The notes under the pieces: model-generated
What the model was told of the DNA's origin: nothing
What the model saw: only the letters and a program-made list of their open reading frames with translations
The model's database searches: none
Assembly (NCBI RefSeq): GCF_036669915.1
Contig: NC_089325.1
Span: 3,159,683 to 3,223,682, forward strand
Direction of reading: 5' to 3'
Source: Pocillopora verrucosa
Lineage: Eukaryota > Cnidaria > Anthozoa > Scleractinia > Pocilloporidae
DNA length: 64,000 nucleotides
Part shown: positions 3,991 to 59,830 of the stretch, piece after piece
How the letters are laid out: each line of letters begins with the position of its first letter
Position numbering within the stretch: position 1 is the stretch's first letter
Position numbers and translations under genes: made by a program

Positions 3991-6900
3991 TCATTTGTCA
4001 TCATTGTTGTGACCAGCTGCAAGGTGTCTTTGGTTCAGTAAAATGGCGGCCGCCTCTTGGTTTTTTCGCTGGCTTCTCATTATGTCTATGATAAGGTCAA
4101 GGATGTTGCCCCTCGTCTGGATTGTCCGTAACAAAAAGGCGTTGCGGTACCTTTTCACTTTCATACTCTCTACCTCTTGCATGTCCTCTTCATCGAAGAT
4201 TTTGTGTTGGTATAGGTGATCACACACACTGATTGGGTCACCAATATTCTCAAGAAGAGAAACATGGCAAGAACGCAGCACTCTCCTGTCTTCGTCGGGC
4301 ATGACAGTGACTGAAAATATAAAAGTTAGGCAATTAGAATAGTCTTAAGAAACAGTTTATAAATTACCTGTCAATGAAGACAACCCGACCTACTTGCAAT
4401 CGCGATACTAGTGTCTTTATTTACTGTCAATAACACATACTGACGTGAAGTAAGGTACGTATCTTTATGCTTACCTAATAAACTAAATATTTTTCCTCAC
4501 TACCTTACAGCATAACTTATTCACTAATAATTAACAATATTTACTGCTTAAGTAACACACATTTGTTTGAGAACTGTAAATGAAATAGTGATTATCAAAG
4601 TGTCATAGACTGATACATATTTTCAGTGTTGTAAGGGTTATGTCTAGGGTCCTGGGTGGCATGGGGATTTCATGGTAGTTTCTCACATGATGGCTATTGT
4701 GTTCAAACTCAAAGCAAATCATCTTGTCCTGATATTTCTAGTAACACAAGTTCTACTTCAAGATTTTTCAAAAATTGTAAATGGAATGCTTCAGTCAAGC
4801 TTGCTTCACAATCTACATGTAATCTCTAATTACCTGCTTGTGGATTGTACAGCCAGGGTGATATATTTGCTTCGTAGTACTAAATCAAAACAAGATAGAA
4901 TTTGGTAAAATATGTAATATTTTTTATGAAGACTTTGAGCATTATAACATTTTGGAAATTACTTTAAGACGAGTTGAGTTTAATTTATTGAACCAAATAA
5001 TGATGCAAAAATGTAATAACTATTATTTCAGTCTTTGCTAGGTTATCAATAGAAGACATCTTGAGGACACATGAAACTTTACTTGTTAGAACTTTTTGGT
5101 TTTAAAAAGATAAAATAAACGAAATTGAATCTAAAACCATGATATGTGGGTGTATAAAACTAAAAAGGTATCTTCAAGGAAACGAAAGAAAAAAAAACTC
5201 CGTAAGACTAAAAATAGTAAATTTGCAGGACAAGTACCCAATACCTAGCATGACTTGTTGCATGAAAATTTCGAAAAAGATGCTGATAACAATAATGCTT
5301 ACATTACAGTACTTATATGATAAGTATGATTATAATATCATTGTAATGATATTGTTACTAATCGACCTCTCAGTTTGAAACCGTCTAAGTAGGAAACAAA
5401 CATGACTCTCTGCAACTAACTCACACATGATTGTCTGTGAGCGGTAATATGTCCTGCCTCGGGAAACACACAAATGGATGTCCATGAAAAATTTTATACT
5501 ACACGAGGAATTTTTTAAGACAATGCACATTTATAACAATAGCTTACCGCTATGGGCACAGTAAAATGTAAATTTGTGTCACCAGATTGGATGTTTATGC
5601 GGATGTTGTCCTCAAAGAGCTTGTCCTTTTCACCTGTGCATCTTGTTAGGACTGTTGCTGAAAATCCACACCCAACCCGATCTTTACTCCTTGAAAGGAT
5701 TTCAGAGACATTTGCAACTATCTGCAGGACAGAATGTTTACGAAGGTGACTAAGTCAGAGAAGTGCTTGACAAGAATATATAAAACTACAACTTTGTCAG
5801 AGTGTCAAAACTCTACATCTCTTTTTCAAAAACTTGCTAATAGGTAAATATTACTGACAGGAAAAGAAAGACATGAAATACTCAAGGAAGAAATATAAAC
5901 TTAAAAGACAAATTACAGTACATTAGAGGAGAGAAGTTTCTAAAGTAACAGTGGTGCTGCGTCAGTGGGAGGGTATACCAGAGTAATTTAGTATTATGAA
6001 CTGAATCGATAATGTAAAAATTGGCCACCGTAAAGAGTTTAAAAGCTGACGCTCGAAACGTAAAATTCGAAACTCTTTACGGTGGCGAAATTACGCTATC
6101 AACTCCGCTGACAATACTAAATTACGCTACAGTGTAGTAGGGCTAGGTTTAGTCAACATGTTTTCACCAGATGGTAAGTGCTCAGGACTTTGATTATATT
6201 AATGTGCTAGATTGTATGAATAGAAAATAACTGATCTAATTACTGAAGTCATTTATCCAAAGTAACTTACTGTAGGTGGGGAGACAATTGAGAACATTTC
6301 ACCAGTGACCATTTCAAAGTTAACCTGACAAATTTCATCAATCATAATGCGATGGAAAAGAGCTGGTAACATTTTTGTTTCTTCCATCATTGGGAACTCT
6401 GTGCCATGGCACACAACACCCTCGTATTGCTTGATTTTTGGGAACTTCTGCAATTGATCATAAAAATATGTTTTGAAAAGCTAATCTCCAGGAGAAACAA
6501 GTTCGAAATAATCTACTTAAGAAAGAACCTTGCGACAAATGTTTGCACAGCCTTAAATTTCAAAGTTCACATGGCTCAATTTAACTGCAGATAAATTAAA
6601 AGAGCACATACATATATGCATACCTCCTGGAAGTCCTTAAGTGGGATTATGTAGAGAGCATGGATTAAATCATCTCGTGCAATGATTCCTCTTTTACACA
6701 GAAAAATCATACAAAGTATTCGGAACACATTGCTTGATCCTGGATCTCCTGGTAATTGACAAAATTAAATTTTCCTTAACAAATTAATACTATTGCATGT
6801 TTATTAATACAAATTAAGTTTATTAGGTGTATGACCTGCCCACATGACTCCTACTACCAAACATAATCCGAACTTTGGACTTTAGTGCCAATTGTCTCTC

Positions 6901-8499: not shown

Positions 8500-11400
8500 A
8501 TGTACATTCTGAGCCTCTATTTAATGTGTTCATTCCAATTTCTCTCCATTAAAAATGTGAGTAAACCGTTATTCTTTAGGAATTTTCAAAAAATTTAAAT
8601 GAATATATTTACGAAGTGACAGTTGCCGCCCGTCTCGGTCAAATTCCACGAAATTCTCAGAGATAACCCCATTGCATTACAATGACCTTTACAAACTACA
8701 TTGGATCATTTCCTAGAAAGCAATGCCAGTGATAAAAGACACAGCTACGTGATTATTTACCAGACTAAACGGCACAGAAGTAGACCGTTGAAAGCAGGAT
8801 AAAGAATAGAGCAGCTTTGCTCCTAACGGCTTATCAACAAAGACAGGTCTACAGATATCCTGACATCTCCACCTGATTGGCGAGCTTAGAAAGATTTCGA
8901 TGTTCCTCACACTGAGGTTTAGGCACCAGTCTTTCCTTAACAGCTTCTAAATTAAATTATAGAGGGTCTTATAATACATGATAATAAACATCAATTTGCT
9001 TTTTATCAGGTTCATACCGTCTGTAACTATGACGAATTTGAAGTCGAAGATGTGTTCAAACACGTTTCTTGTCAAAAATGTCTATCTTGTCCTCCTGGAA
9101 TGGGTCTAACACCACAATGTGGCAGTTTTGTTAGTTATGGTGAAAAAGTTTATTGTGAGCCATGTGAACCTGGAAAATCTTACTCTCCTAATAATGATAG
9201 CAGTTCATGCCTGTCATGTGGAATCTGCTCTGACCATGAAAGCATCAAGAGGAACTGTTCCTTGACGAATAATTCACAGTGTGAACATGGCTGTGGCAAA
9301 GGGTTTTACTTTGAAGAACTCACTGGAGATTGTAAGCCCTGTTCCTTCTGCTTTTCATATCTTCCCAATTGTAACATAAAAAATAGTGTGAAAGAAGGTT
9401 GCAAGGACATGCCATTTTACAGACAATGCGATGCCAATGCGATTGGCTGTCAATTACCAAAATGTAGAGAAGATCAATCCCTTGTTGTAACCCAAGAAAA
9501 AGACAGTGCATACTGTGTGGATTGTAAAATCTGCCCGGCGGGAACATCACCCTTTCCACCATGTGGAAATGGAATCATAATAAAAAGCATTGATGATATA
9601 AAATGTATTAAGTGCTCTCGTGGCAACACGTTTTCTGACAAGCCAACTAAGCAAACTTGTAAGAAATGCTCCATTTGTGCAGTTGGACAGAGAGAACTGA
9701 CACCCTGCAATCTGACACATGATAGGATTTGTGGTAAATGTGACAAAGGATTCTATGGCAGTAAAGACACAGGATGTAAACCATGTTCTGCCTGCTGTAA
9801 TGATAAATACGATGTGCGCATTCCTGAATGTCGAAATATAGCAAAAAACAAACAGTGCGGCTATACAGAGCGATCCATAACTGTGTGTCAGGAACAAAAC
9901 AGCTCTAAGAAAACTTCTCCAAAGAAATCCTCTATCATTACAATAGTTTTGACTGTGACGACAGCACTACTATTTGTTGTAATCTTAACACTGGTGATTA
10001 TAAAGTGCATCAAATACCGCAGAAAAAATAGGCGTCAAAGAACGGACTCATGTACTGCGTTGCTGCCATCTGCAGACGAAGGTAAAGTTTTAATCATTAC
10101 CTCATATTGGGATTCAGTGATGTCGATTTGAATTGAAATGGCCAATTGATAAACAGCGATGAAAAAGGATTAAAAAAAGATCCACCAAGGGCCTTTCATC
10201 GCAAAAACAGAAAGCTGAAGACTTCAAGATTAACCCCTGGGTACTATGAACTTAAGAATCATTTTTTTTTAATAATTCTCCCACCAAAAAAAGGAAATGC
10301 AAGATTGTATACAATCATAAGAACACCATGATAACTACTACCAAATTTAAAACCTATCCTCTTCCTTTCTTTAGCACCACGGAGTGAATTGATAACACTG
10401 GAAGATCCAACACCACATGGATCACAACAGATATTACATTTTGATAAATCAGGTATCTTGATCCAATTCAATGATGCAAATTGTTTCTCCAGTGATTGCC
10501 GAGGAATACAACTAAAGATATGTTGGGATGAAAATTCTATACCTCTTCAGCCTGGTGAAGTACAGCTTAGCCCTGTGATAAAATTTCAGCCTTATGGGAA
10601 GCAACTATCCAAACCAGTGCAAGTCAGAATACCTCATAGTGCTTTGGTGTATTTAAGCCATGGCTGGAACATCAAGCCGAAAAGCTCTGTACCACACAAA
10701 GGCTCAATTGTATGGAAGGGGGAAAACAAATTCCAAGTCCACAATAATGAAGTCAGCTTTCAGGTTGATAATCTTACCTCCTATGTTATCATCGGTACGT
10801 CACTTGATAACGGCAAACCAACAAAGAAGCGCTTTCAAGGCGCTGTTTTTGGTGGAGTGGGCACAGTTGGTGTGGACTACACAGCATACTTATATATCTT
10901 TGATGACAGTGAGTCATCATTTGAGGTATCTAGATAACAATAGTTTTTATAAACTGAGAACGTTAGAATTCCCTTGGCTTTCCTCCTCTAACCCTCAATG
11001 AGTGGCTCTGACTAGCCTCCACTGGGTACACAAGTATATTAATTTTCAGAAACCAACGATAAACGCTCTTTCATCAGGAAGTGGCAAACAAAAACAGCTT
11101 GATAAAAATCTTTTTTTAAATTGCAATAGGTATCAAAGTGAGATGTAGAAACATTCCAAGGAAACATGCATTCACACTGACATTGAATCTTAAGATAGGG
11201 TTAAAGATATACTTCTTTTAATTAAATGATTTGTTTTGGAAATCTTCCAGAAAATCATGCAAGAAGAGAAATCAACCGGTAGAACCCTGCTTGGTTCCCC
11301 TCAGTCCTTTTATGTCGAGACTATGATTGATACTAAAGTAAAGATCTCAGTCAAAGAACCAATGGAAGGATGGATTGTTGGAGAGATAAAACCAGAGGTA

Positions 11401-14158
11401 GTTCTCAGTAGTGCAGTGTATTAATCAACCCTTGTCATAACAAATACGTTATTAATAAAGCATAAATGTAGCTGCACTAGTGAGTTGTAATTTGTTGCAT
11501 GTAAGCTGTCTATGTTCAAACATTCAATCCCCCTAGATTCACTTCTCTTGTCACAGGCTAAAGTGTACTAATAAAAAATGGGTCTAAAAAAAGGTTTTTA
11601 AATTGTTTAGAAAATAATAATTTTGAAAACTTTTTCAATTATTTTCAGCAAAAGTAATGGCAAATGGAATGATATTAAATTCACTGAAAATACCAAACAA
11701 TGATATTGATGATATTATTAATAGTAATAGTGATACTACACTCTGCATTGAGTCAAACAAACCTGGTTATATGAGAAGGTGAGCTCACTTCGTTGATTTG
11801 TCCAGTTTACCACAAAGAAATGGATCAAGATATCTTGAACCATGCCTCCCATTAGTTCATTAGTGAGTACTATTCTGCATTATCAGTTATTTGAATAATT
11901 ATTGATTTTGGTTGGGGAACTGTGTCAGTTCACAAAGAGATTAGAAGTCCTTTTTGGTTGTTAATCAATCTGATGTAATATTCATATGGTATCTGACTTG
12001 TAGGCTTTGCTTTAATCACACAGTTCATTACACAAACAAATTTGAAGGATTCTTATCAAGCAATACCCAGAACAACAGTAAAGTTTAAACATGACAATGG
12101 CCGTAACCGAGACTTCCTTTGTGTGTTTGAACTAACTGCAGAAGATACCACAACATCGATTTGTGCTGTTGCCACGATTAGAGAGGTAAGTGCTTTTTTC
12201 ATCAATCTAAATTAATGCAACTAAATAATAATTTGGTTAAAAATTAATTAAATGTGATTGTGATGAATGGATTTATTAGCCAGCATGATATTTTTTATCA
12301 TACAGTTGTATGCAATAACATTTGTGGCAATTGGTTTTGCAATTCTGAAAATCTTGAAGTCTGATGTCCTAGACTTTATATTAAAAGGCTTAAGATATAG
12401 TCATGAAAAAAAAAGAAGACTGAGATATGTGATACATGTATAATGGACTGAACACATTGCTCAATTACACTATTTTCATTTTTGTTTCCTCCTTGGCAGG
12501 ATCCATCTAGGAAGTTTCAGGAGCACCAACCAGGATTTGGTAATGGCAGTCATCAATTTGTGACTGGGAGAAACTTGTGTGGTAAGAACACAATTGTTTT
12601 GATTTTATTTCCAGGATTGAGTTATTGGTACTCAAAATCACTATTTAGCTACCTTAGGATCCCAGAGATAATTATTTCACTTTTGCTTGGTAAAAAAAAT
12701 GAAATTTGGAAATGCAGTTTTGTTTTATTAAAACTGAGTACAGTGTATCTCTGGACTACAGAGGATACATTTTATCTTCAGTAGCCACAATGTAGCTCTG
12801 TTACAGTTGTGATTTATCATCTAATCAAAGGAAACCTGTATGAAGTGGTTTATAATAGGTATATTCATTTTCACATACATCCTTGTCAATATAGACCAGT
12901 CTTATCAAGCTCCCTTTTTTCATAATTTCCATTATAATTACTAGGTTATACCTTCTATAGTAGAGGCTTCCATGCTCAAGAGGTAAAAACATGTTCAAGA
13001 GAGATTTATTTTTGAAAAAAATTGTTGTAGAAAGATGTAAAAAGCAAAATTGGCTTAGTCTGAATATTGGTTAATTAGGTACATGTGGTTTTTAATGTTG
13101 TTGAGAAACTGGTCTTCCTAGAGGAAGAGAGAAACTAGCTGCATGAGGAAATAATTGAAAGACAGAGACTCTAATGGAATCACAACTCAAATTCAGCAAA
13201 ATCAAACACCAGTATCAGTTAGTGTACATATGGTCATTCTGCCATGGACCAAGAAAGAACTCTTCCTTTCCACAACAAGAATAGCCAATTGAGCCTAATC
13301 TTAGACAATTTACAATACTCTACCAAGGTTCTAAAATTTGGAATTCTCTCCAAATATCAATCATTGGTTTGACTTTTTTATTTTTAAAAGAAAAATGATA
13401 ATTTTTTAAGTGAAATGAGTGCAAATTAGCCAGCCGCACATCCACATCCACAACTTAATTACAAACATATTGACATACGAGGTGGCCTCACCTATAAGCC
13501 TGGTGGTTTCTTGGAGGTTTCCTTACTCTACCATACTGTTAAACCTGTATAAATATTATATCTTTAGTGGCCAATAAATAAATAAATAGATGATGGTGAT
13601 GACAAAAGTGGGGGTTACCTGTGACTAGTTACAAGTGAGAAATTTGGAGGGAAAGCTCAGTTTTTCAGTGTCTACTTTAGATCTTAAGAATGCACCTCAA
13701 TTTTTTTTGTAATTTGTGCTTTTTACATTTTTCAAAGACAAAATCGTTACTTGCAATGTAACTTACCACCCAATAAGTTGCCTTGACTCAGCTGATTGAT
13801 GCCTTTGTACCCTCTTAAAGATCCACTGATCATCAACCCAGACAAACCATCACCTTGTCTTAAAGATCTTCCAAAGGAGGTACTTGAAGCTCTTTGTGAG
13901 AAACTTGATAAGCCCCTGAAAGGAGTTGGCAATTGGAGGCATGTTGCAACGTGCCTTGATTTCACCGAGGAACAAATTCAGCGTTTCCGGAATGAAATGT
14001 TGACTCCTGACGGAAGTCCGTGCACTGTTATGTTGGAGGCACTGGTGACGAAGTCACCACAGTTCACTGTGGCAGAATTTGTGCATATTCTACAAACAAG
14101 GAAGATTCAGCGCTTTGATGCGGTGGAAGTTCTGGAGCCTCATTTACACAGCTGTTGA
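8500..14158 (+). CDS. Receptor gene A: TNFR ectodomain, transmembrane, ZU5, UPA and death domain
   Basis: Exons: 8500-8556, 9010-10081, 10375-10925, 11251 to about 11407 (donor ambiguous, 11408 or 11411), 11649-11778, 12071-12185, 12500-12581 and 13821-14158. All phases join, giving about 833 residues. Exon 1 encodes a 19-residue signal peptide (MYILSLYLMCSFQFLSIKN). Exon 2 encodes six TNFR-type cysteine-rich repeats in two similar blocks (about residues 25-165 and 166-310), then a transmembrane helix near 328-350 and a basic stop-transfer stretch. Residues about 390-510 form a ZU5 domain (GEVQLSPVIKFQPYG, KPVQVRIPHSAL, LTSYVIIG). UPA follows (AVFGG, YLYIFDDSESSFEKI, PQSFYVETM), running into the next exons. 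The last exon is a typical death domain (NWRHVATCLDFTEEQIQRF). A cell-surface receptor that signals through DD contacts is the likely role. The ligand is unknown. The middle UPA exon borders are the weakest part of the model. Confidence 0.88.
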
Positions 14159-16503: not shown

Positions 16504-19500
16504 CAGAGAAAGTTACTACGCAATACCCCTGAGATCTACACGCAGAGATAATTTGCCCTCTCAGTATAAAAAGGTAAGAAAATTCCTCAAGAAGTTTTGA
16601 CTATTATTTGATTTTCCGTCGTTAAACACCATCAAACAGTTTTTCTGCGTGTGCCATATCCTAATTTCGTCAACTTGGGTTTATAAAAAGTGTATTTTGT
16701 CGCCGAATGTTACAAAAAATGTGCTGCGTAATCACTTCAATTCGCAAAAATGGGTTCCTCAGCCCTAACGGTTTTCTACAATAGAAGAATTCTACATGGT
16801 TGTGACTGATTTTTTTTATCTTGAGGGAGTCTGTGGTAAACTTCACCCTGTTCATAGATAATTTTTTAAAAGACCTTGGTACCCGACAAAGACGGTTTTA
16901 TATATTACAGGCTTAAATCACAACTGTCGTTTGAGTTGTTTTAGGTACATTTCGATACGAAATCGAAATGATTTTTCCTCGGCAATTCACACAATACCAG
17001 CTTGGAAAATGCGACATTCCCTATCAGAGATAAGTGATCAAAACCGTAGGTTTGTTTCATCAAAACGATCGTGCCTAAAATGGTTCATGAAAATAAATAT
17101 TGCATCAGCTTTGTTCGTATTTAAATAACGTCATGTCATTACCAAAACAAAATTAATATTCATTGTCTGAGTTTGGTAAAATGGTAGAGTATTCAATAAC
17201 GCACATGCACCTGAGCAGATATGTTTAAACATTTACAATCATTCCTGATAATTTTCTTTGGCAGTTATTTGGGATAATAGTTGTGGTCTTCTATCTTCTT
17301 CCCGTGGTTTCTGCAAAGGTTAGACTTTGTGGTATTTATAATATATATATATATATATTACTATCTTTGTATCTAGAATTTCATGAACATTATTTATTGT
17401 ATGTGTGGGCTGGCAAAATTTTCTCTGCTCTTTGGTCAGCAATCCCCGAATATATTACATAACAAATTTAAAATCATGTCATTAAGGCAGGAATCTAACC
17501 ACTATACTTCTAGATACACTAAAGTTTATCATTCTAAGCTATAACAGAAAATCGATAGGAAAAGAACAATTCTTCGTTTTATCTTCAATATCTCCGCTAG
17601 TATAAAAACAGAGCTTACTAAAACATTCACTCTGGAAGGGAAAAAATACAATGATATCACTCCTTTGGAAAGAAAATTGTCTTCATTAAGCTTTTCAATT
17701 TCGAAGTACATTTATTCGGTAAATTCTGGCCAAAGAAACGTCAAAATAATTTGGAAAAACAAATAACTCCGTAGACCACCGTCACTTTTCAAATTTTTGG
17801 AAAATTTAAAATTTTTCCTTGTTTCACGAGGAAATTATGACCTCAAAACCCGATGGAAATTGGTCATATCAAGAATAACAACAAGGTTGTTAATGGTGGC
17901 GAGTGTTCACGTTACTGGCACCGCTTCTTCCGCTCCCTTTTGCTTGAAAAAATTACCATAATTTAAATCAGTTGGGTTCCAAGCTCTCTTAAAAGACTAA
18001 GGACATACTTCTCATTAAAAGAAAAGTAAATCCTTAACGTAAAAATTGTGATATGAAAAGCATCGATTCCCATATGTTTACATTTGTCAAATAACGTATT
18101 GCGAAGCCACATAAAAGATGGTTTACCTCAATTCTTTGTTTTCCATTTCCAGCTACGATTCCAAATAACCTTTTCAAACAATTGAAAACCCTTTTCGGTT
18201 GTTATTATTCTCCAAAACCATCTTCAGAAGCTTTGAGAGTAGGGGAGTACGTCCGATCGTGATCCGCCATAATGAAATGTTCCAATAGCTGATGTTATGT
18301 CTTCATGTACGCCTCTTTCAACTGTCCAAGCTCAAAAGATAACGATCTATACGACATAGCAAATAATAATTCCTTGCTCTACATTTGCATTTGGGGGTTG
18401 GGGGAGACAAAGGTTCTAGATATATTTTATCTCCTACGGTAGTTATAAGTATACCTTTGGCCGCGGAGTAATTAAGCATTGATTCACTGGAATATTACAC
18501 AGCTTGAAGATTGTCAGGATAACTGGTAGAACAGGCAGAAAATATGATCACTTCTCGATTCAATTGCGTGGTGCCTCATGCACCTTGAAATAAAGAAAAA
18601 TGATACCTGTTCTGCAAAAGTGTCATTATGCAAAACAGGCATACAGAACCGGATATTTGCTTTAGGGCAGTTTGTAGATGACAGTTAAATGACAGTTGAG
18701 TGTGGCCTACATCACCAGTGAAGTGGACCATTTTTGATTTAACTCTGAAGGATGAAGCTCTTCCGCTTTCGAAGCTTTCAAAGCCGTACCGTTAATATAA
18801 GAAACTATGTTGATTCATTCGCAGAATCATACACAGGAAATTTCCATTTAACCCCCTGCACTTCGTGTTATTATTATTACAGTTATTTGATCAAGAAAAT
18901 AATGACGAAACAATAGCTAAAATTTTGACTAAGGCTTTCCTTAACAATAACATGGAATTATGCGGGAATTCCTTTCCTCATACTCTCAGTGAGTATGTAT
19001 GTATGTACTCTCAGTCAATAAATGTGAAACTTTATTCTTATTTCTTTTATTTTTCTAGCCGACGCCAGGTCAGCAAAGTCCTTGCGAACCAACCCAACAC
19101 TGGGTTGAAGACGAAGATGGGTCACACCAGTGTATAAATTGTGGAACTTGCCCGCCGGGGCAAGGTCTCTCAATAGAGTGTGGCAGTTCTAAACTGTTAC
19201 CTTTTAAAACCATGGTGGTCTGTGTGCCATGTATCGCAGGAGATTCATTTTCCAGACATAAAGATTCTTCCAAATGCATTCCTTGTGCATCCTGCTCCAA
19301 AGGTCAGGTTGTGGAACAAAGCTGCTTGCCAGAGTGGGATATTAAGTGCACAAATAAATGCTCCAGCAAGGAAAGGTACAAATATTAAAACAATTATACA
19401 TAGGTTGTTCCATAGAATGATTATTTTAAGTGTTATAACTGTGAAATGAACATCTATCAGCTTTTGCTGATAATCTTGTTTAAGCAAAGTGTTTAGTTTA

Positions 19501-21862
19501 ATGCTAAGATAGGAGTAGACTTTGGGGAATATTGAAGAAGATCTGAAGATCTTTATGTAGTCGGCATGCGAGTGATGATGTTGAATTCCTTATTATTTTA
19601 CTGGTTAGGTATTATGATGTGGACATGGGAGACTGTCTCAATTGCTCAAGATGCTGTGGCGATGATAGAGATGTGATGGTAAATGAGTGCAAAGAGAAGT
19701 TGGGAGACGGCTCAAACATGATTTGTTCATTTGACAGCAGTGTCAACCGCTGTGACCAAACAACACCTCAACTAACACCCACCATCAGCCATGTTGACCC
19801 CAAACATGATGGTCCTTATACCACTCAAAAAAGTAATCATTCCATTCAAGCTAAGGATCAGGACTATTTGGCAGCAATCGTTATTACAGTGGTGATAATA
19901 GTTGTTTTGGCTTTTTGCCTTTGTTCGTCCTTTTTTAAGAGGAGACTGACGCAGATGTTTATTTGGTGTAATACTACTGTTGAGAAGGAAGACCATCACA
20001 GTTCATCAGCGATGGAGGGAAAGTTAACTTCTAACCATAAAGAACAATCTGGTAAGAATGCGAAGCTTTATTCTGAATTCGCACTGATAATATTTAGTTT
20101 TGAAATATTGAGCTTTCTTAAGCTCAAGAACAGAATTTATAGAAGAGGATCGTGACTGAGACGTACCAAATTGCAGAAACACTTTTAATGTGTCAGAATC
20201 GCTTAAGAATCATTTGCCTTATCGTGTCAACCCAACTACCCTTAAAGGGACCCAAAACAAAGATTTCTGCTTTTGATTATTGACTTCCATGCAATATCTA
20301 AGCTTTGCTATACCCTTACTGATGGTTTTACGCAATGGACCTGCACTTTATCAAATCTATAACATTCTGAAGAGATATGGACTGAGGTAGAACTCCTTCA
20401 GGGTTGGTTTCTTTGCGCTATGCTGGTATATATTAATTACTAGATGCAATGATTAAATCCTTTTCGATTTTTCTTATAGACGACTCATGCGGGAACATAA
20501 GGGAAACTGACTCATCGAATAAGCTTGGAAAAGCTCTGACAGACTCGGAGGAACCCTTGCTGTGTTCAGAGGAGGTAAATAAAAAATAATTATTGTTTTA
20601 CTCGTAATTTATAGACATTATAAGGTAAACTTTATTACTGGTAAATTAAGGATATGTCGCAAGGTTGGGTTGTTATTTACAATGATCATTCCCGGTTGAT
20701 GTTGTAGTTTAGGAACCTTACATAAATCCGTCAAATCATCGCGTAAGTCCAAAACGCATTGAACATTGCTCTGATACATAGATTTTTTCAGAAATCAAAG
20801 CATAATTAAAGTATTACCAAAGATAGATAAATTGATGTTAAAACTGAGTCAAGGTAAGTTTCAATATGCACCTTAAATAATCCAATTTTCAGAGTAATCC
20901 AAGACATGCCTGAAAAAGAGTTAAAAAAATCTGTCTTGCACACTAGTGGCACACTTCGATGTCCTATCTGAATGAAATTATATTTACAAATACTTAATAG
21001 TCAAAGTTTTTGTTTCTTTATTGCCTTAGGGTGTTCTGGAAAACTTGGACGACGCTCAAACCAGTAAAACGAAAGGTGTGATTGACGTTCAGTTTTGTTC
21101 GCAATTTATACTAACCCTCAATTGTGTTTTGGATAACTGGAATATCTCTTGACTATCACCATACCATCATATAACACAAGCCATCGAAGCCATCAGGGAT
21201 AAGGCAGTCTTATCCTAAGCTATTTCTTTGAATTATAGGTCAGAGTTTTCTCATCTTTGTGATTTGTAGGAGCTAATAGTTTGAAATAATTAAAAGTTTG
21301 GACAAAGTAAAACCCAGAGGACGAGAGAAATTCCTATAAACCTTTCTATTTTTGTTAGAGTGTCATTTATTTAATCTCGAGTTCAAAATGAAACTGTTAG
21401 ATTGAGAAGTGGTTTGGTTGGAAGTAAATCTAAAAGGATGATTTTTTAAGGGGGGGAAAGCCAAAAAGATAAATCCAGTTATTAGAGATATACTGCTACC
21501 GTGGTGGTTATAATATTTTCTCTGTTTGCTTGTCTCTCGTCGGTTTAGATTCGAAGCTACTTAGCAGCTTAGTGGAGGGTGAGTCTTACCAGTACTTAAA
21601 GAAAGTCTGTGTGCGTTTGGACACAGCCATGCCAGGCGTTGGTGACTATCGTGATGTCTGTTTTCACTACGGCATTAATCATTATGAGATTGCCTCAGTG
21701 TATGAGAAACACAGCGATGGGCCATCCAGAGCTCTAATCGGTCACTTGGCAGCTACACATGTACAGCTAACAGTAGCTGACTTTGTGGGTGTGGTAAGGA
21801 ATGTAGCAGAGAGAGATGATGTTGCTAAAGTTCTAGAGGAATATGATTCGCAGAAGGAATGA
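16349..21862 (+). CDS. Receptor gene B: TNFR superfamily member with death domain
   Basis: Exons: 16349-16366, 16496-16573, 17265-17318, 19059-19375, 19609-20051, 20480-20574, 21030-21075 and 21549-21862. The product is 454 residues. A polar 32-residue leader precedes the hydrophobic signal core LFGIIVVVFYLLPVVSAK, so the signal peptide has an unusually long n-region. Three cysteine-rich repeats follow (CINCGTCPPGQG, CIPCASCSKGQ, CLNCSRCCGDD), then a short Thr/Pro stalk and a transmembrane helix near residue 243-265 (AAIVITVVIIVVLAFCLC). An acidic tail (DSEEPLLCSEE) leads to a death domain at about 355-450 (GVGDYRDVCFHYGI, GPSRALIGHLA). It should act at the cell surface and signal through DD partners. 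One intron splits the cysteine-rich region, unlike genes A, D and E. It is the tandem paralogue of gene C. Confidence 0.9.
17336..17359. repeat. TA microsatellite in intron 3 of gene B
   Basis: A run of alternating TA just after exon 3 that is absent at the matching place in gene C. Confidence 0.8.
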
Positions 21863-26944: not shown

Positions 26945-29900
26945 CACTGAAACTAATGACGCAATACGAAAACGACCGCGCAGTGATCTATCGTCTCTTC
27001 ATCCGAAGGTGAGCAAAATCAATAACCTGTTATGCCTTTTCATTTTTTTTAATTGTCGTTAAAAAGAGTGAAGCACTTTTTCTACGTGGGCCAGTTTAAA
27101 TTGCATAAATTCGGTGAGTAGAAGGTCAGCTATCATCAGTTATTAAAGGGGAAAAGCGCTGCGTAATCACATTTATGCGATTAGCTCATGGTTTGCTAAG
27201 ATGGAAAAAAATTCTGACTGCAGATGAAGTTTCATTTTGAAGAAGTCCATAGTAAGACTTGGCTTATTCATCTTACAAGGGATGATAACATTTTATTTAA
27301 TCCTATTTCATCTTATTTCATCTAAGATGATGTGTACAACAACTACGTCAAAAGCGGTTTTAACAGTTTTATGCGTACACAATTAGAATTTCGCAAATTC
27401 TACTTTGATGTAAACCTTGATCTCTTTTTTCTTATCTCGCAATTTGCAGCAAACTAGCTCGCCGAATGCGAGATTCCTTCTCAATATATGTAATCAAACG
27501 GTAGATTTTATCCATCGAAACGATATTTCTGACACCGGCTTATGAAAGTATTGCGTCACCCTTGTTTAGGTTCGAATAGCTTTACGTCTTTAAAGGAATT
27601 TAAAAAATATTCGCCGTCCGAAATTTGGCAAAAAAAAAAAGATCAGTCATGTAATTGACATAAGTAAAACCTTAGCACTATACTAAGGCGTTACTAATCA
27701 TTCATCGTAATTTATTTTCACAGTTATTTGGGATCATATCCGTGGTTGTCGTTTGCTTTCCCGTGGTTTCTGCTAAGGTTGGATTATATTTATTGTATAT
27801 GCATAATTATTACGTACCTTATAGATACTTAATTTCGCGTTTTTCGCGATTTTCAAAAGATCGCTAAATTATTGCTCGCGAAATTTAAACACGCAAAATG
27901 TCATAACAACACTTATTCCCTGTTATTTCGGAATTTTAAAAAGTTCAGACTTTTTGACAAGTAAAATGAAGTTGAGAACGCTTGAATCGCAAAATTTAAT
28001 GCTCTATTTTTTTATATTTTCCTTCTGATACCGCAAAAATAAAACCCCACAAAATTTTGTCTCGCAAAACGAATGAGTTGTTATTTTTGTAGCTAATATT
28101 ACATTCTTTTAATAAACACTTATTAAACGAGAAAAATCTCTCATGCTTTGGGTATAGTTCCCTCTAAATATATATAAAAAACAAATATTCAAATCTAGTC
28201 CATAAGTCCAGAATCTAACAACCGCTCTTTTAGATACAAGAATATTCCTCATTCCAAGCTAGACCAAACAATAGATAACAATTCCACCCGTATACATTCA
28301 ACATCAAGAAAGGTACTAAGAGCAGCACATACTACAATATATTATTAGGAAGGAAATAATAATATGCCAATTTTATTTCAATAAACTATACTTTTGAAAC
28401 TAATTTTAGTACTCGATAAATGTAGGCAAGTGAAAATTTCAGAAATGCCTATGTAAAGCCTCTTCTATGCAGAGTTTTGGTAACTGCCATCATGGTAAAT
28501 GCCATCATGTGTGACTGAAAGCTTTACAAATTACGGTGAATCTTGAAATAACTACCAGGTTTTCTTTACAATGAGATTCTTCGGAAGGGTATGTTGGGAG
28601 TCACTCTTACCTATTCTACTCGATTAACGATTTCATAAGAAATAAATGAGAATAAGAAGATCTTAAATCAAAAATTATTTAGCACCCTCAAACAGGTTAG
28701 TAAATATTTCCCATAACAAAAGAGAACACGAAATTTTCCCAACATATAAATGGTGATTTGAAGAACATCGCGTCTCTTTTCACGTATGTTACAAACAGAA
28801 GAAAACACGAGCGAGGCCTCGTTGGAGATCGTTTAGCTCAATTATATGGCTGAATTTCGAGCTACTTTTTGAAATGATTTAAAAGCTGATAGTGGCCCTC
28901 CAATCCTCAACAACCCAAGCTCTGAAAATTTCTCAGAGGATCCGCCATTTTGAATTTGAGTGTGGATTAGGTCCTTCCTTCGTATAAGGAACATTTAATT
29001 ATCCAAACAAAATATCGCCTGGTGATTGGGTAAATATATCAAGGATAGAAAGTAACACAGATTTGGCGAACTCTTTTTTTTCTTGTGGTTACTGGCAAGA
29101 CCTTTAACCTGGTAAAAAATTTTTGTTTGCGGCATGTGGTCGAGGAAATGCATGCGTGAAGCGAGCGTGAAGGGCGAGTCACTCCCGTGAGTCCGTGACG
29201 CCTGTTTTGCAATGCGTCTTTGTCATCCTGGATTTCTTATTATATTCTGCGACAATTAGATTGGGCTTACATGATATAAAAGATGAGCCGACTGTTGCTC
29301 AAAATGGCGAAGCTAAGTCGGACCAACTTCTTGCGGGTTTTGATGCTTTCACCGCCGTTACGACACAAAATGCAAATATTTTGTGTCGTAATCTTTCTGA
29401 CATGTAGAATGGAAAGGACTGCCACTCATTTATTGTTACTCTTTTTTATACGTTTTCTTTTTCCTAGCCGACGCCAAGCCAGACAAATCCTTGCAAACCA
29501 ACTGAATACTGGGTTGAAAAGGAAGATGGCTCACAAGAGTGTATAACATGCGGAACTTGCCCAGAAGGACAAGGTCTCTCAACGGAATGTGGGAGTTCTG
29601 AACTGCTGCCTTCTAATACCATGGTGAAGTGTTTGGCATGCACCAAAGGAGTTTCATTTTCCAGATATGAAGATTCGTCCATTTGCCTTCCCTGTGCATC
29701 ATGCTCTAAAGGTCAGGTGGTAGAACAAAGCTGCTCTCCCAAGTGGGATGTCAAGTGCGCAAATAAATGTTCCAGCAAGGACAGGTACAATTATTATTAC
29801 AATTATTCATTAATTGTCCCAGAATTGATTATTGCAAGCGTTTTAATTGTTAGGTGAATATACTCGGAGTCTTTGGTGATTATTTTGTACGTGCACTGTG

Positions 29901-32375
29901 TAGTTCTAATACTGGAACAGGCATAAACTGTGGGAATCGTTAAAGATAACTTACCACCAATACTGATACAATCTCTAAGCCATCATAATATATTTACAGA
30001 AAATTTTATGTTAGTTCTGTGGCGTGCCAGCGATTATATAAAAGTTATCACTATTTCACTGGTTAGGTATTATGATATGGACAAGGGGGACTGTTTTAAG
30101 TGCTCAAGATGCTGTGGCGATGATAGAGATGTGGTGGTAAAAGAGTGCAAAGAGAAGTTGGGAGATGGCTCAAACATGGTTTGTTCATTCGACAGCAGTG
30201 TGAACCGCTGTGGCCAAACAATGCCTCAACCAACAACCATCATTAGCCATGTCGACCCCAAACACGATGGTCCTTATACCACTCAAAAAAGTGATCATTC
30301 CACTAAAGCGAACGATCGGACAACAACTGTTATTCTTGTGGTAATAATAGTTGTTTTGGTTTTTTGTGTCTGTTCATGCGTTTTCAAGAAGAAACTGGCA
30401 CAGATGTTAAGTTGGTGCTATCGTACTGTGGAAGAGGAAGACCATCATGATTTATCAGTCATGGAGGACGGATCATCGACTGACGGAAAGGGTGGTAAGA
30501 CTGTGTAGCTTTCCTTTGAGTTCGTTCTAATGGTGTCCATTATTCAAATATTGACCTGGATGAAACTCATGAAAAATAATGTTAGAAAGTCTGGCCACTA
30601 AGATGTACCCAATTGAACCAACAAAGCTCTCAGTATCTCCATAGAATTCTCTTCTCAAAAGTGTTTTTTAGGGTGTAGTTTCATTTAAGACGTCTTCGGT
30701 TGATCGCCTAACAATATTCAAATGTAAGCATACTTCATTCATATAGCAACATAGGAAAAGTAAGCATTGGGGAACAACATTTCTCTTTATCTCTTTTGTT
30801 AACTACAACAGTCCTCGAGATGCAGGTTGATTAAATTCCACTCACTTTTGTAGGTGATTAACCCTCTCTTGTCAAACTCATTAATCAAACCGACTCTGTG
30901 ACATGCCCCAGACTTTGCGTTGGCAGATACTGATTCTGTTACATTCATTCATGTCTGAAATGCTTCCTCCAAGCCTGTCACATTCATAGTTTTGTATATT
31001 ATGATCTTTCCAGTAGAAAATGCTAAAGAAAACTTAGAAGAGAGTGATGAGTCATATGAGTTAGGAGAAGTTCATTCAGTTGCAGAGGAACCCCTGTTGA
31101 AAGAGGTATGCAAAAGGATATTTTTCTACCTTAAAGTTCATCATAGCTTAAGTTTACACGCGGTATATTAAGCCCTTCCCGTCAAATGCATAGCTATTGG
31201 ACCTCTACGACCAGTTCAATCGTCAAGCATGTTTAGAACTTAAGCATTGCCTTGAGTCTGAGGCATTGTCAGAAATCGAGATACAAGTGAGGTACAACTA
31301 AATATGTGAAGATATTAAAATTGAGAAAAGATGTGCTTTAACATATGCATGCTCAATGAAAAATTCAATTTTTCAGAGTACGTTGTAACTTATGAAGGAG
31401 CCGTAAAATTGCCCTTCATTTATGCTCAGGTACACACTTTAATGATCCTCTTAACTTAAAGAGTTTGAAAATAGTCATAAATTAATTTTAGTTCCTCTTT
31501 GTTAAAGGGTATTCCCGAAATCTTGGACGACACTGTAACCACCAAAGAGAAAGGTGTGATAGAACTTCAGTTGGAGAGAGACTTTGAACTTACTGTCAGG
31601 GGAATTTATTGTTAATCGGGACTTTTAAATTCTTGATTTTCATCAACCAAAAGCCATTGGTGCCATTAGGGACAAGATAGCCCGATATTAATTTATCTGT
31701 TTGAGTAAATACTATTTAATCGGAGGTTTCTTATCTTCATGATTTGTAACACCTAATAGTTTCAAATACTTTGCAGCGATTAAGAGTTGGAACAAAATGA
31801 ACCCAGATAAAGGGACAAATTTCTTGCAAACGTTCTACTTTTTGATGTAGCTGCTTCACCAATAGGGACCCTTAATGGAAAAGATAAAAGCTGAAAATGA
31901 TTTGAGATAGAGGAGTGGAAAACTCTCTGGGTGGTTGGAAGAAGACATAAGATGTTATTTTGTTTGGGGGGGGGGGAGAACCAAAAAATGAAATGTAATA
32001 CGAGTAACCCCCTATCATGGAGGTTGTAATGTTGTCTATGTTTGACTGTCTTTCCTTATTGCAGGTTCCAAGCTACTTAGCAGCTTGTTAGAGAGTGAGT
32101 CTTACCAGTACTTAAAGAAAATCTTTGATCGTTTGGACACAACCATGGCAGGCGCTGGTGACTATCGCGATGTCTGTTCGTATTATGGTATTGATCGTTA
32201 TGGGATTGCCTCAATTTATGAGAAGCAGAGGGATGGGCCATCCAGAGCTCTAATCGATTACTTGGCAGCCACACATGAACAGCTAACAGTGGCTGAGTTT
32301 GTAACTGTGGTGAGAAAAGTAGCAAAGAGAGGTGATGTCGCAAAGCTGTTAGAGGAGTATGAAGAGGAGTTGTGA
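26781..32375 (+). CDS. Receptor gene C: TNFR superfamily member with death domain
   Basis: Exons: 26781-26801, 26937-27008, 27724-27777, 29468-29784, 30067-30494, 31014-31105, 31508-31553 and 32065-32375. The product is 446 residues (445 if the second of two adjacent ATGs is used). The layout matches gene B: polar leader, signal core LFGIISVVVVCFPVVSAK, three cysteine-rich repeats (CITCGTCPEGQG, CLPCASCSKGQ, CFKCSRCCGDD), transmembrane helix near 240-262, acidic tail (SVAEEPLLKE), and a death domain from about 346 (GAGDYRDVCSYYGI, GPSRALIDYLA). Four of eight exons have exactly the same length as in gene B. Ectodomain charge changes between the paralogues fit a shift in ligand preference, but that is inference. 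Confidence 0.9.
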
Positions 32376-35203: not shown

Positions 35204-35985
35204 TTCCCACATGCTCTAATCCAGTACCAACCGGTAGGCATTTTGCTTGTCAGCATATTTTTAAACATCTCGCTACTGAGCGGAACGAATGAGCTTCTAC
35301 CGATTCTAATCATTACAAGATATTATTCATGTATCAAAAGTCTCAATTTGTTCAGCAAGATTCGACAAAAAATTAAATGAAGACTGCACCGTAAGTATAG
35401 TGTTACTGTTCTTTAAAAAATCTCTTGATCGTTAAACGATTTGAAACCGGCATACTGTGACCTGTCTCGTTACACAATATCTTTTCATATCTCAAGCTTT
35501 GTAACTGTGCAAATTGCTTTACTTGACGAGAGTTTGCTACTTCGGACATAATATCCTCGGAAACCTTGCCAAGTCGAGTGGACTGGAGAAGTGCTCCTGA
35601 ACCATGTGCTCCGTTGGAATATAAACGAAGACCGTAATTATTGCAGTTGTGGTAAGTTCACATTCTGTTTATTCCAGGCTGGCAAAATTCAAGCGATGGA
35701 TTAAATGCATATTGTTTCATTCAGATAGTTTGTGTTACAACCAGTAGAGAACGACGGAAATAATTATTTCTTGATATTGCTACCTATGACATGTGAGGTA
35801 AATTTCATGACATAGACCGGTAGTATTGAGCATATGAGATCGACTTCCCTTTTCCCTTATTTTTCCCTTTGAAATGCTAACTGTATACTGATTACCATGG
35901 GATAAGGAAAAAACGCTGATCTGGCGGTAACTGAGGAGGTAGACACTGTTCCAATAAAAGAAAATAAAGGTTCCTTCTTTTTCAG

Positions 35986-38089
35986 CTCCAAGCAAAAGGA
36001 AGAGATTGCTTGGGCTGTAAAGGTGATGAGATCACCTGGCGTAGGGATAAACCAGGAAAGAAAAACACGTGTATAACGTGTATCGATTGCCCGGACGGAA
36101 CTGAGCCGTCGATTCCTTGCGGAGGGACCGCCAAATATGGAACACACTTACATTGTGAGGCATGCAGGCAAGGAACCTATTCGGACAATTATGGAAAAGG
36201 GCCCTGTAAGCCATGCTCTCTATGCTCCGTTGGACGTACAGTGACAAGGAACTGTTCTGCGACGAAGAACGCTCAGTGTGGCTCTTGTAAATACGGCTAT
36301 TACCAGAAAGTTGTCATCATGAACCTGCTTTTCTATTGCCTTCCGTGTTCTGTCTGCTGTGGGGACGGTAAAGATAAGGTAGAGAAGCAGTGCACAGATC
36401 AAGGGCTTCCAAGTCAACAACATTGCAAATTCAGAACCGCGCCCAGCTGTCAACTGTTGCGGACAACTTCAAAGATCACATCGAGCACTCCATTTCTAGG
36501 AGCAAATCATACGGCAAAGAAAGGAACAAGCCCAAAGGGACAATCAGAGGAAGCTTCTTCAGTTCCTTCATCAAGAACACCGAAGCTGTATGCAAGAACC
36601 ACTGCCATAACCGTAAAACGACATGAAAAGTTAGCTGCTTCCCAGTATGGAACGAGTTCAGCCTCAGAAGGATTCCACGGCAATAAATCAAAGGGATCTT
36701 TTTCCGATAGAAGTGTCGATATTAATAATGGCAATGGTATTGTCGTTTCTCCTATGTATGGGATTCCCGTTATTTTCATTGCAATAATTGTAATTGTTCT
36801 TAAGCGGAACAAGCTTGCAAGCTTCTTTGAAAGGACGAGGTGTGGTCCTATCCTGAGGTGTAGAGACGCTGAACTCGGTAAACAAATAGAGAGTACTCCG
36901 TTGAATGTTGTGCCATTAGGAGGTACGTGAATTTGCACTATTTTGAACACGGTCAAATGATGGCAAATTACTCAGTCGTTGAGACACTTTCTTAAAGGAC
37001 TAAGCAGTCAGGACAAAAACGCCGGGGAAGACGGTGATTAAAAAAATTTATATATTTTTTTAACAAGAATTTCGTGAATGGCTAGATTTGTGAACTAGTC
37101 TTTTGGCGCTAAGCCTCAACTTACGAATAACGTACGTAAACAGTGCTGAGTTCCAAATGGAAACTTAAATAATTTTTTGTCGAGGCTTCCGTTATCAGCT
37201 TTGACTCGTCCTTGGTGCAGTCGCTTTCGTAGTTTGCTTTAAGTCCCATTTTTGTGCCGCCAGCCAGAATTATTGGCGGAAAGTGCCATTTTTGTACCGC
37301 CAGCCAGAATTATTGGCGGAAATTAGACCTTTAATATCAATCTATAGGTACAGCTGTTTCATGTTTAAGACACAGATAATGACAAAGATTTCTAAAAGCG
37401 AGGAGTGGTGAACATGTGCCTTGTGTAAGACTTGACAAAACGGGTTTCATTTCAATTATCAATTAAATGCTAACAGTGTAATATTTTCGTGATAGGTTTG
37501 GTTCTCAAACTTAGTTATTGGAAGAAAAAGTTACGTCAAAAAAGTAAATAAACATGTACGAATAAACCCAAAGGGAACAAAATAGAGGACAGTGTAAAGT
37601 AAGATTAGAACTCTTAAATTTGGTCAAACGTTTCCTAGATACTCAAACCGTGATGTTTCTCCATGACCAGTTTCTCTTCCGTTTGCCCATTTAATGTTTT
37701 GAACGTAGCGTTCTTTTTCAGTCTAACAACATGAATATTAGTAATTTTTCTTTTCCTTTGTAGTTCTGGTTTCCTTAAAAGATTTGAAGTCCCTTTCACT
37801 TGACACATATACCAAAGTGTGGAAACGACTGGACAAACAGCCGGAGGGAAAGACCAGAGGTGACTTCAGAGATGTGGCTGTGCGGTTTTTGTATTTAGAA
37901 GAAGACATTTGGGAACTGGAGAAAGAATTTAAATCATGTGGCTCTGGAAGTCCTTCAAGACAGCTTTTAGAAGGTCTAGAAACTAGACGACCTGACCTTA
38001 CTGTGTTGGAGTTTATCAAAGTTCTTCGGGAACCAAATATACTGAGGAACGATATCGTTGAACTTTTGAAAGATTACATTCATAGATAA
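35986..38089 (+). CDS. Receptor gene D: TNFR superfamily member with death domain, 5' exon unresolved
   Basis: Two exons are clear: 35986-36922, starting in phase 0 after a TTCTTTTTCAG acceptor, and 37764-38089. Together they give 420 residues without the signal peptide. The order is three cysteine-rich repeats (CITCIDCPDGTEP, CKPCSLCSVGR, CLPCSVCCGDGKD), a long Ser/Thr-rich stalk of about 100 residues that is probably O-glycosylated, a transmembrane helix at about 253-275 of the fragment (YGIPVIFIAIIVIVLKRNK), a basic juxtamembrane stretch, a short tail, and a death domain (RGDFRDVAVRFLYLEEDI, GSPSRQLLEGLE). The exon layout matches gene E rather than B and C. The signal exon must lie between about 35230 and 35985 and was not found. 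A surface DD receptor is the likely role. Confidence 0.85.
37241..37320. repeat. Two tandem 40-bp units in the gene D intron
   Basis: Two adjacent copies of 40 bp differing at two positions. Each contains CCGCCAGCCAGAATTATTGG, which can itself pair within the unit (CCGCCA against TGGCGG). Confidence 0.85.
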
Positions 38090-42200: not shown

Positions 42201-42509
42201 CTGGAAAGAAACAACATGGATTTGTTTGATTGGGTTTGCACCCGGCTTGATAATGGAAAGTCAGGTTTCCGGCAAGACTACGAGCGCTTGGCTGCCAAAT
42301 ACAAACTAATTTCCCCGGAAGTACGAAAATCCTTGAAAAATGAGTTTAAAAGTGAAGGTGGAAGCCCCTCCGAGATGCTGATGAGGCAGCTGCAAACTTT
42401 GTACCCCAGCTATCCTGTTCGTTGTCTTGTAAGAATGCTGAAAGAGATCGGAAGAAATGATATAGCACAAAAACTAAGACCCTACATAAGGAAAAATGTC
42501 GAAAACTAA
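39215..42509 (+). CDS. Receptor gene E: TNFR superfamily member with death domain
   Basis: Exons: 39215-39355, 41090-41960 and 42181-42509. All phases join, giving 446 residues. Exon 1 encodes a polar leader of about 34 residues followed by the hydrophobic core RFLIVLIFGTL, so the signal peptide again has a long n-region as in B and C. Exon 2 holds three cysteine-rich repeats (CIDCPDCPVGSE, CKACTICSTGK, CWPCSDCCHDGQD), a Thr/Pro/Ser stalk of about 80 residues, and a transmembrane helix at about 273-297 (VLLILSGVGVALGIAFLFAL). The final exon is a death domain (FRQDYERLAAKYKLI, GGSPSEMLMRQLQ). The protein is closest to gene D in layout. Intron 1 is long and contains a foldback element. The join of exon 1 rests on phase and signal-peptide logic and is slightly less certain than the rest. 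Confidence 0.85.
40248..40495 (+). mobile_element. Foldback element, copy 2, with 13-bp target duplication
   Basis: A leader (GTGGTGCTGCGTCGGTGGGAG) is followed by a long palindrome built on GCCACCGTAAAGAGTTTAAA and CTGACGTTTCGAGCGTTAG. CATATATGGGTGA flanks it at 40235-40247 and 40496-40508. No coding capacity. It lies in intron 1 of gene E. Confidence 0.8.
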
Positions 42510-58477: not shown

Positions 58478-59830
58478 ATGAGCAGCAAGAGGAAAAAGGG
58501 AGAGGAGGATGGGCGTAGCGAAGATAATTTGTGGAAAGAACAAACATGGAAAAAATGGGGGCAGAATTTTACATTTCCTTATCCTGAATTTCGAACAACC
58601 GCTAATAGCGATCAACAAAAAAATAAGTCTGAAACAGTGAACTTGAACGAGGACACGAGTGGGGGGGAAATAAGAAATTCCCCTGTTTCAAGAAAGTGAG
58701 TATCCATCAATTTAAGCAGTTTATAATCACCTCTGCATTGAGATCCTCAAAGATTATTAACCATCTCGGTCACAGTGAACTTGAAATTGTTGTAAACATC
58801 TTCATCGTCACTGCCACTGTCTCTGTCATTGCTGCTTTTGTTGTTGTTTGCACTTTCATTCGCATTTTTCCATGATTTCTGTGTAATTGTAATTGTAAGT
58901 TCATTGTAAATGGGCAGAAAAACTTTCCTAGTAGACTATTATCAAGATCAGTTTGTTACTCTGTCATGTCTGACACAATCCTTTCCTGTTTGACTGCTCT
59001 AGCTTTAGTTTCTTCACAAAGGATATAAAAGGAAAGTGGCATTACCGTCCTTGTAAACCAAAGTGTAAGGACAATCATCCTGAAGCAGAGTGGAATGGAA
59101 GCAATATTGCCAAGGTAAAAATAGGCAGACCTGTGCATACCTTCATCAAAGTACTTTCCGTTTATAATAATTATTATGGAATGTTTATGATTGTATGTAG
59201 ATATATGTGTATAAATATAAAACATATATATATTTAACAAATAGATTCCAAGTGACACAGTAGACATCAGTGACACACTCGGCTGCGCCTCGTGTGCCCC
59301 TTTTTTATTCTTACCACATTTTGACGTCATCTGTGATCTTTTACTGAACAGACGCACGGCTACGTGGAATCTATTTATTTTATATAATAAAGAATTAAAA
59401 AAGTTTTAATGATGACGTCATCTATACGTCTGTCCTCCAATAGATCATAAGTGAGAACCAATCAGAATGCGTGCAAAACTGAGCTTATTATATAAATATA
59501 CATATGTGTGTGTGTGTGTGTGTGCGTTTGTTTGTGTGTGTAGGTATATGAGAGAAAAATATATACTTCGAAAGGCACAAATATTATACACTTTGGTAGC
59601 AAACGTTTCGCCGGTTATGGCTTCATCAGTACAAAGTTATGCAAACTATAAATTTATACAATAGGCTGCTAAGGATCGTTAAAGCATGACACCTCAAGTT
59701 GACAAATCGTAGCAGCCCATTGTATAAATCGGTCGTCCGATTCAAAACGTGGGATAACAGACAGAATTGGACTCCTCGAAAATTACCTCTTTTAGATATC
59801 TATATCTATATCTACATAAATCTATCCCAG

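Follow-up and report, generated by a model that had tools for sequence, protein, structure and literature searches.

How a receptor of the tumour necrosis factor (TNF) family could come to carry the intracellular module of the netrin receptors, and how such a protein might work, are the questions raised by a gene of the coral Pocillopora verrucosa. The gene (gene 1) lies at positions 8500-14158 of the plus strand in the window, the whole stretch of 64,000 nucleotides of contig NC_089325.1 that was analysed. It encodes a hexacoral type I receptor of the TNFR superfamily with an intracellular tail made of ZU5, UPA and a death domain (DD), and that this architecture is real and conserved is almost certain.

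Gene 1 spans 5,659 bases, the stop codon ending at 14158, and consists of seven exons with GT-AG borders, which join in frame to yield a protein of 802 amino acids (aa); the intron phases are 0, 1, 0, 0, 0 and 1. The first-pass annotation had described eight exons in consistent phase; the in-frame joining stands, while the count is seven. Exon 1 (8500-8556) carries the start codon and a putative signal peptide (aa 1-19, called by eye) and ends with the donor GTGAGT in phase 0; it is the least certain of the exons, and the start of the relative P0001 differs. Exon 2 (9010-10081; 76% identity to P0001) encodes the cysteine-rich TNFR ectodomain, the transmembrane (TM) helix and a basic juxtamembrane stretch, and ends in phase 1. 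ZU5 and the start of UPA are found in exon 3 (10375-10925; phase 1 to 0), UPA continues in exon 4 (11251-11397; phase 0 to 0), and exon 5 (12024-12185; phase 0 to 0; 76% identity to P0001) holds the remaining UPA-like region. Exon 6 (12500-12581; phase 0 to 1) forms a linker toward the DD, which is encoded together with the stop codon in exon 7 (13821-14158), starting in phase 1.

The first-pass annotation had read the domain order TNFR-TM-ZU5-UPA-DD from short motifs, all of which are present in the 802-aa protein, and had suggested checking it by a profile search and in other cnidarians. In a Pfam search of the whole protein all four domains passed their curated cut-offs in one frame: TNFR_c6 at 49.8 bits (cut-off 29.4) in three stretches, ZU5 at 36.8 bits (cut-off 21; aa 399-477, positions 10440-10676), UPA at 29.3 bits (cut-off 27; aa 527-597, across exons 3 and 4) and Death, in exon 7, at 26.1 bits (cut-off 22.6). 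The ectodomain piece alone gave four TNFR_c6 stretches, and neither Ig nor thrombospondin type 1 families were listed by Pfam at E values up to 10; PDB matches of the protein included TNFRSF14, CD27, p75NTR and DR5. Within the ectodomain (aa 20-325) there are 40 cysteines and five N-glycosylation sequons, and the region seems to be a doubled block, as its halves align at 34% identity over 96 aa with a score of 160, whereas 500 shuffles gave at most 73. The predicted TM helix (9928-10005, about aa 326-351) is followed by the basic stretch, in agreement with the positive-inside rule. The three most hydrophobic 19-residue stretches begin at aa 331-335 (maximum 2.9), and all 19-residue stretches exceeding 1.6 begin within aa 300-375; one hydrophobic stretch, aa 331-353, with basic residues behind it is the pattern of a single-pass type I protein.

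Three protein searches yielded 27 relatives, and for 11 of these the precomputed domain list contains TNFR_c6 together with ZU5. The same domain order was found both in annotated coral proteins and on short contigs. All four domains are listed for Stylophora pistillata LOC111337445 (78% identity over 98% of the query) and for an Acropora palmata protein named 'netrin receptor UNC5B-a-like'; the named sources with both TNFR_c6 and ZU5 are the stony corals Stylophora, Oculina, Montipora and Acropora. Two further relatives, P0010 and P0017 (the latter from Actinia tenebrosa), combine TNFR_c6 with a ZU5 at or below the cut-off. A taxonomy look-up places Stylophora, Acropora muricata and Actinia in Hexacorallia. 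The searches favour relatives of similar size that share exact words with the query, so that absence outside the hexacorals is not implied. TNFR_c6 alone was listed for ten relatives of 381-426 aa; among the three of these that were inspected, P0022 and P0023 fit a single ectodomain exon and P0015 continues into ZU5. ZU5 without a TNFR match was seen in P0006 (Pocillopora verrucosa), P0013 and P0026 (Desmophyllum), and P0027 has TNFR only. Four relatives of 744-814 aa (P0002, P0005, P0012 and the N-terminally short P0010) are encoded on contigs of at most 2,686-2,950 bases; as these are shorter than the 5,659-base gene with its introns, they are probably spliced transcripts.

How ZU5-UPA may have come to lie between membrane and DD is suggested by the surroundings of gene 1, which is the first of five TNFR-like genes in tandem on the plus strand. 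The other four are TNFR-TM-DD paralogs, whose partial models are based on splice consensus only: gene 2 (19059-21862; TNFR_c6 40.4 bits) and gene 3 (29468-32375; 43.3 bits), both without ZU5-UPA, gene 4 (35968-38086; 50.9 bits) and gene 5 (41090-42506; 30.8 bits). Both halves of the gene 1 ectodomain match the same block in genes 4 and 5, and more weakly in genes 2 and 3. In all five genes, gene 1 included, phase 1 is found both at the end of the TM exon and at the start of the DD exon; what differs is the content of the gap. Genes 4 and 5 have a single phase-1 intron at this site (36923-37763 and 41961-42180, respectively). Genes 2 and 3 have two short linker exons, located in gene 2 at 20480-20574 and 21030-21075, between a TM exon ending at 20051 and a DD exon beginning at 21549, and in gene 3 at 31014-31105 and 31508-31553, between 30494 and 32065. 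Gene 1 has its exons 3-6, a symmetric class 1-1 block of 942 nucleotides that holds ZU5-UPA (314 aa). No ZU5-UPA was detected in the gaps of genes 2-5 by tblastn with 12 relatives at E values up to 10; the sole match there comprised 15 ectodomain residues on the minus strand (E 2.2). From the exon phases, the neighbouring genes and the profiles we infer that ZU5-UPA was inserted: the block has phase 1 at both borders, and the genes lacking it show a phase-1 intron able to receive it, as expected of an exon-shuffled class 1-1 module. ZU5-UPA is thus probably a four-exon block spread by exon shuffling.

The origins of the block and of the DD were examined with a ZU5-UPA profile built from nine stretches and a gene 1-type DD profile built from eight DDs. 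Among PDB chains, the closest solved relative of ZU5-UPA was UNC5B (3g5b; E 2e-11, 46.8 bits), in support of the UNC5 likeness noted in the first-pass annotation, followed by ZO-1 (E 2.6e-4) and the ankyrins (E 0.7-0.8). By phmmer, aa 421-737 align with the same UNC5B structure into the start of its DD (E 7.2e-9). The DD exons of genes 2, 3 and 4 gave no Pfam match, and that of gene 5 a Death score of 15.7 bits, below the cut-off; the gene 1-type DD profile scored 40.6, 42.2, 62.7 and 46.1 bits on genes 2, 3, 4 and 5, respectively. On solved DDs the same profile scored 27.8 bits (ankyrin-2), 27.1 bits (p75NTR), 25.9 bits (MALT1) and, for UNC5h2, 13.2 bits (E 0.67). The DD of gene 1 thus appears nearer to those of the neighbouring TNFR genes than to any solved DD listed, and an UNC5 origin for it is weakened by these scores.

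Unlike DDs were found under like cassettes. Two Acropora muricata proteins, P0007 and P0008, each listed with a contig of 33,923,032 bases, show 78% identity N-terminal to ZU5 (TM helix included), 84% in ZU5-UPA and 17% in the DD. With a model made from genes 2 and 3 only, the DDs of P0008, P0009, P0013 and P0014 reach 64-72 bits, and with a gene 1-type model 36-44 bits; those of P0007 and P0012, which are in neither model, score 13 bits with the former and 66-71 bits with the latter. No chain named as a death domain was present among the four PDB matches of the second DD type. In the DD tree P0008, P0009, P0013 and P0014 join genes 2 and 3 (support 98/98), and the ZU5-UPA tree places P0008 and P0014 beside P0007 and P0012 and separates them from P0009 and P0013; for ZU5-UPA, a single clade of the four was rejected (p-AU 7.6e-5). 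Also rejected was a DD tree in which the DDs of the 12 ZU5 receptors named for the test stand together, apart from genes 2-5 and P0010 (p-AU 0.005). The groups in these tests were named after the alignments had been viewed, which weakens the p-values. The linkers of P0007 and P0008 share an exon 6-like start and then diverge, so the DD seems to be switched at the point where exon 6 ends in gene 1; in 12 receptors the linker between UPA and DD measures between 22 and 85 aa. Excluded were P0011, which has an internal deletion, from alignment A4 and the trees, and P0017 from the DD tree, owing to the low DD score of its C-terminus (5.5 bits); P0013 is N-terminally partial.

The Pocillopora verrucosa protein P0006 (908 aa; 95% identity over 73% of the tail query) was used in alignment A1 and as a tblastn query; subsequent profiles and trees were built without it, since the protein begins with sequence matching another gene (58478-59150) and lacks the DD at its C-terminus; read-through or a faulty gene model may account for this. 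At 58478-59150 two stretches match its N-terminal part (56% and 72%), indicating that a relative of gene 1 and the ZU5 tail have been annotated as one protein in this species. An intron stretch of gene 1, 12945-12982, matches P0006, there isoform X2, at 79% over 19 aa, with borders set by eye; this exon together with a shifted last exon would yield a receptor without DD.

Like TNFR1, Fas, DR5 and p75NTR, gene 1 has TNFR_c6 repeats, one membrane helix and an intracellular DD, the last of which defines a death receptor and is recognized at 26.1 bits here and more weakly in most of the relatives scanned; the likeness to the p75NTR DD, at 27.1 bits, is near noise. To our knowledge, none of these four receptors has ZU5-UPA between membrane and DD. 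The intracellular order ZU5-UPA-DD is shared with UNC5A-D, whose ectodomain is made of Ig and thrombospondin type 1 domains; gene 1 differs from them in its TNFR ectodomain and in a DD which, by profile and with vertebrate UNC5 as the comparison, does not appear to be of the UNC5 kind. PIDD and the FIIND proteins NLRP1 and CARD8 also place ZU5-UPA before a death-fold domain, as gene 1 does, and are not known to be membrane receptors. They are autocleaved at the end of ZU5, at HF/S or SF/S (PMC3210808), a site that is not conserved in the gene 1 family. Amphioxus TNFR-caspase hybrids, reported to be supported by cDNA (PMC2575513), resemble gene 1 in joining an invertebrate TNFR outside to an unusual death-pathway module inside, which is a caspase there and ZU5-UPA-DD here.

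The working model that we favour, though tentatively, is that the cassette is a clustering unit, restrained by its own ZU5 on UPA, which amplifies DD contacts once the receptors are crowded; ligand, restraint, clustering and output are all inferred. The portable four-exon block would have landed in the phase-1 intron between the membrane and DD exons of one member of the array. A ligand outside would gather receptors and bring their DDs together inside, where, as in other members of the TNFR family, FADD-like or caspase-like adaptors may be recruited to them. At rest, ZU5 on UPA would block self-association of UPA; upon crowding, UPA self-association would multiply the contacts between DDs and lower the signalling threshold, as for the CARDs of NLRP1 and CARD8. 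UPA is reported to lower the filament-forming concentration of both these CARDs (PMC7794386), and ZU5 of NLRP1 to contact UPA and hinder its self-association in a unit resembling autoinhibited UNC5b (PMC8081665). As the restraint would sit inside the cassette, the cassette could pair with unlike DDs. An extension that we regard as doubtful is that hexacorals possess mix-and-match death receptors, in which exon shuffling within tandem arrays placed a self-restrained ZU5-UPA between the TNFR ectodomain and a DD that can be exchanged, so that one amplifier would serve different adaptors.

Several observations weigh against these proposals. Of the ten relatives scanned with Pfam, only P0007 has a Death match above the cut-off; P0002 and P0003 fall just under it, P0004 falls well under it, and the remaining six have no match. 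UPA exceeds its cut-off in four of the ten, the match in P0007 and P0008 extending to profile position 134 of 140, and Death appears in four of the 27 precomputed lists. P0017 has TNFR_c6 above and ZU5 and UPA below the cut-off, and its C-terminus, which the gene 1-type DD model scores at 5.5 bits, is hardly recognisable as a DD. The top PDB matches of the DD profile were two dTor chains (30.3 and 29.6 bits); these are taken as designed proteins matching by chance, and scores near 27 bits are consequently close to noise. The DD comparison is also uneven, since it sets conspecific neighbours against a vertebrate UNC5B, and the DD of a coral UNC5 could score higher. The autocleavage site, the position of which was placed through the equivalence of CARD8 F296 and UNC5B L677 (PMC3210808), is likewise not conserved. 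In the 11 aligned rows of A1, the conserved Leu510 is followed by T, T, S, L, L, L, T, L, L, L and H (L-T in gene 1), and the end of ZU5 shows no conserved HF/S or SF/S site, so that some other trigger would be required for release. Family-wide autoproteolysis was rejected on this ground; P0002 carries L-S, at which cleavage might still occur. Finally, the closed ZU5-DD form of UNC5B is reported to leave UPA exposed rather than hidden by ZU5 (PMC5123080).

The same cassettes can be read in other ways. One possible explanation, in our view somewhat unlikely, is that ZU5-UPA would act as a docking platform, binding other partners (cytoskeleton, kinases or phosphatases) as a second output beside the DD. 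The ZU5 domains of ZO-1 and the ankyrins do bind partners, and unlike DDs under like cassettes fit this explanation equally well. Moreover, the UPA of UNC5B as the sole cytoplasmic part is reported to have restored the effect on VEGFR2 phosphorylation, the DD being dispensable (PMC5123080). Against it stands that no partner is known.

The first-pass annotation had suggested that the receptor may couple TNF-type ligands to an autoinhibited DD module. In this reading the tail would be an UNC5-type closed supramodule, its DD held in check by the packing of ZU5 and UPA against it, and a ligand would open it. The domain order is that of UNC5B, whose tail has been described as closed or autoinhibited (PMC5123080, PMC7882925, PMC8081665), and the phmmer alignment with UNC5B does reach the DD. 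We nevertheless consider this explanation unlikely. P0007 and P0008 retain closely similar cassettes above DDs of low identity, the linker differs in length among the receptors, and the DD of gene 1 is nearer to those of neighbours that stand without ZU5-UPA. In addition, Glu666 of UNC5B, reported to form a salt bridge to the DD (PMC3210808), is aligned with a histidine in gene 1, a position placed by hand on the phmmer alignment. Unlike DDs with like cassettes and the variable linker make a DD-specific lock as in UNC5B less likely, although the surfaces of unlike DDs might still fit.

As to origin, insertion of the cassette alone has to be weighed against the alternative that an UNC5 gene donated the whole ZU5-UPA-DD tail, which entered by way of the phase-1 intron following the membrane exon, and that some Acropora copies afterwards exchanged their DD exon for that of a neighbouring gene. 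The UNC5-like ZU5-UPA is consistent with such a capture, and either path is permitted by the introns that precede ZU5 and the DD exon, both of phase 1. The far higher scores of the gene 1-type DD profile on the four neighbours than on UNC5h2, and the rejection of a clade of ZU5-receptor DDs apart from the plain genes, make it an unlikely course in our judgement. A dependence receptor, giving a death signal when unbound and silenced by its ligand, is less probable still: UNC5 and p75NTR are dependence receptors, and the make-up of gene 1 recalls the former in its ZU5-UPA and, weakly, the latter in its DD, but the juxtamembrane stretch is short and, in A1 by eye, holds no conserved caspase-type motif. 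An artefact in which two adjacent genes were falsely fused was rejected as extremely improbable, for although the probable transcripts seen are those of relatives and none is of the window's own species, the ectodomain-ZU5 junction stays in frame on the 2.7-2.95 kb contigs of P0002, P0005, P0010 and P0012, and TNFR_c6 and ZU5 occur together in 11 of the 27 relatives.

Elsewhere in the array, recent duplication seems to have given rise to genes 2 and 3, the DDs of which score 150 bits to each other, and direct repeats at 15437/25912 and 17237/27696 are a further sign of it. Beside gene 1 lies a divergently oriented gene on the minus strand, starting probably near 7742, which ends in a CARD at 3994-4344 (36.9 bits, cut-off 23.9); no clear Pfam family was found in the rest of its hand-joined model.

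The first-pass annotation knew of no described receptor with this domain order. Among open-licence papers in PubMed Central we likewise recognised none describing TNFR-ZU5-UPA-DD, but the order is already present in protein databases, unnamed or as a netrin receptor: the Stylophora and Acropora palmata proteins belong to the gene 1 family and bear automatic names only. The names listed are 'uncharacterized protein', a UniRef name beginning 'Netrin receptor' (Stylophora entry) and 'netrin receptor UNC5B-a-like', and none among them says TNF receptor. The main text of a TNFR review contains no occurrence of ZU5, UPA or UNC5 (PMC4979521); another paper mentions ZU5 and UPA-Zu5 in passages that do not join them to TNFR (PMC8195603), and ZU5 has been reported with NACHT (PMC8260672, PMC12909245). 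TNFR expansions are reported in Stylophora and Acropora (PMC5730576). In Montipora capitata a gene named netrin receptor UNC5C (g6679, FC = 2.00) is reported to be up-regulated after five weeks of heat stress (PMC8590396); it might be one of these TNFR-ZU5-UPA receptors, as such receptors are given that kind of automatic name elsewhere.

Newly noted here are the five-gene array, the phase-1 gap that holds the cassette, and the unlike DDs under like ZU5-UPA. Receptors automatically named as netrin receptors may be missed when TNF receptors are counted. TNF receptors are thought to signal via a bare DD or a TRAF-binding tail; ZU5-UPA between membrane and DD links the TNF pathway to a module of UNC5, PIDD and NLRP1. 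With unlike DDs naturally paired to a near-constant ZU5-UPA, it can be tested directly whether the cassette has to contact its death-fold partner. If the mix-and-match system is true, these hexacoral proteins would be the first TNF receptors with an amplifier of the inflammasome type.

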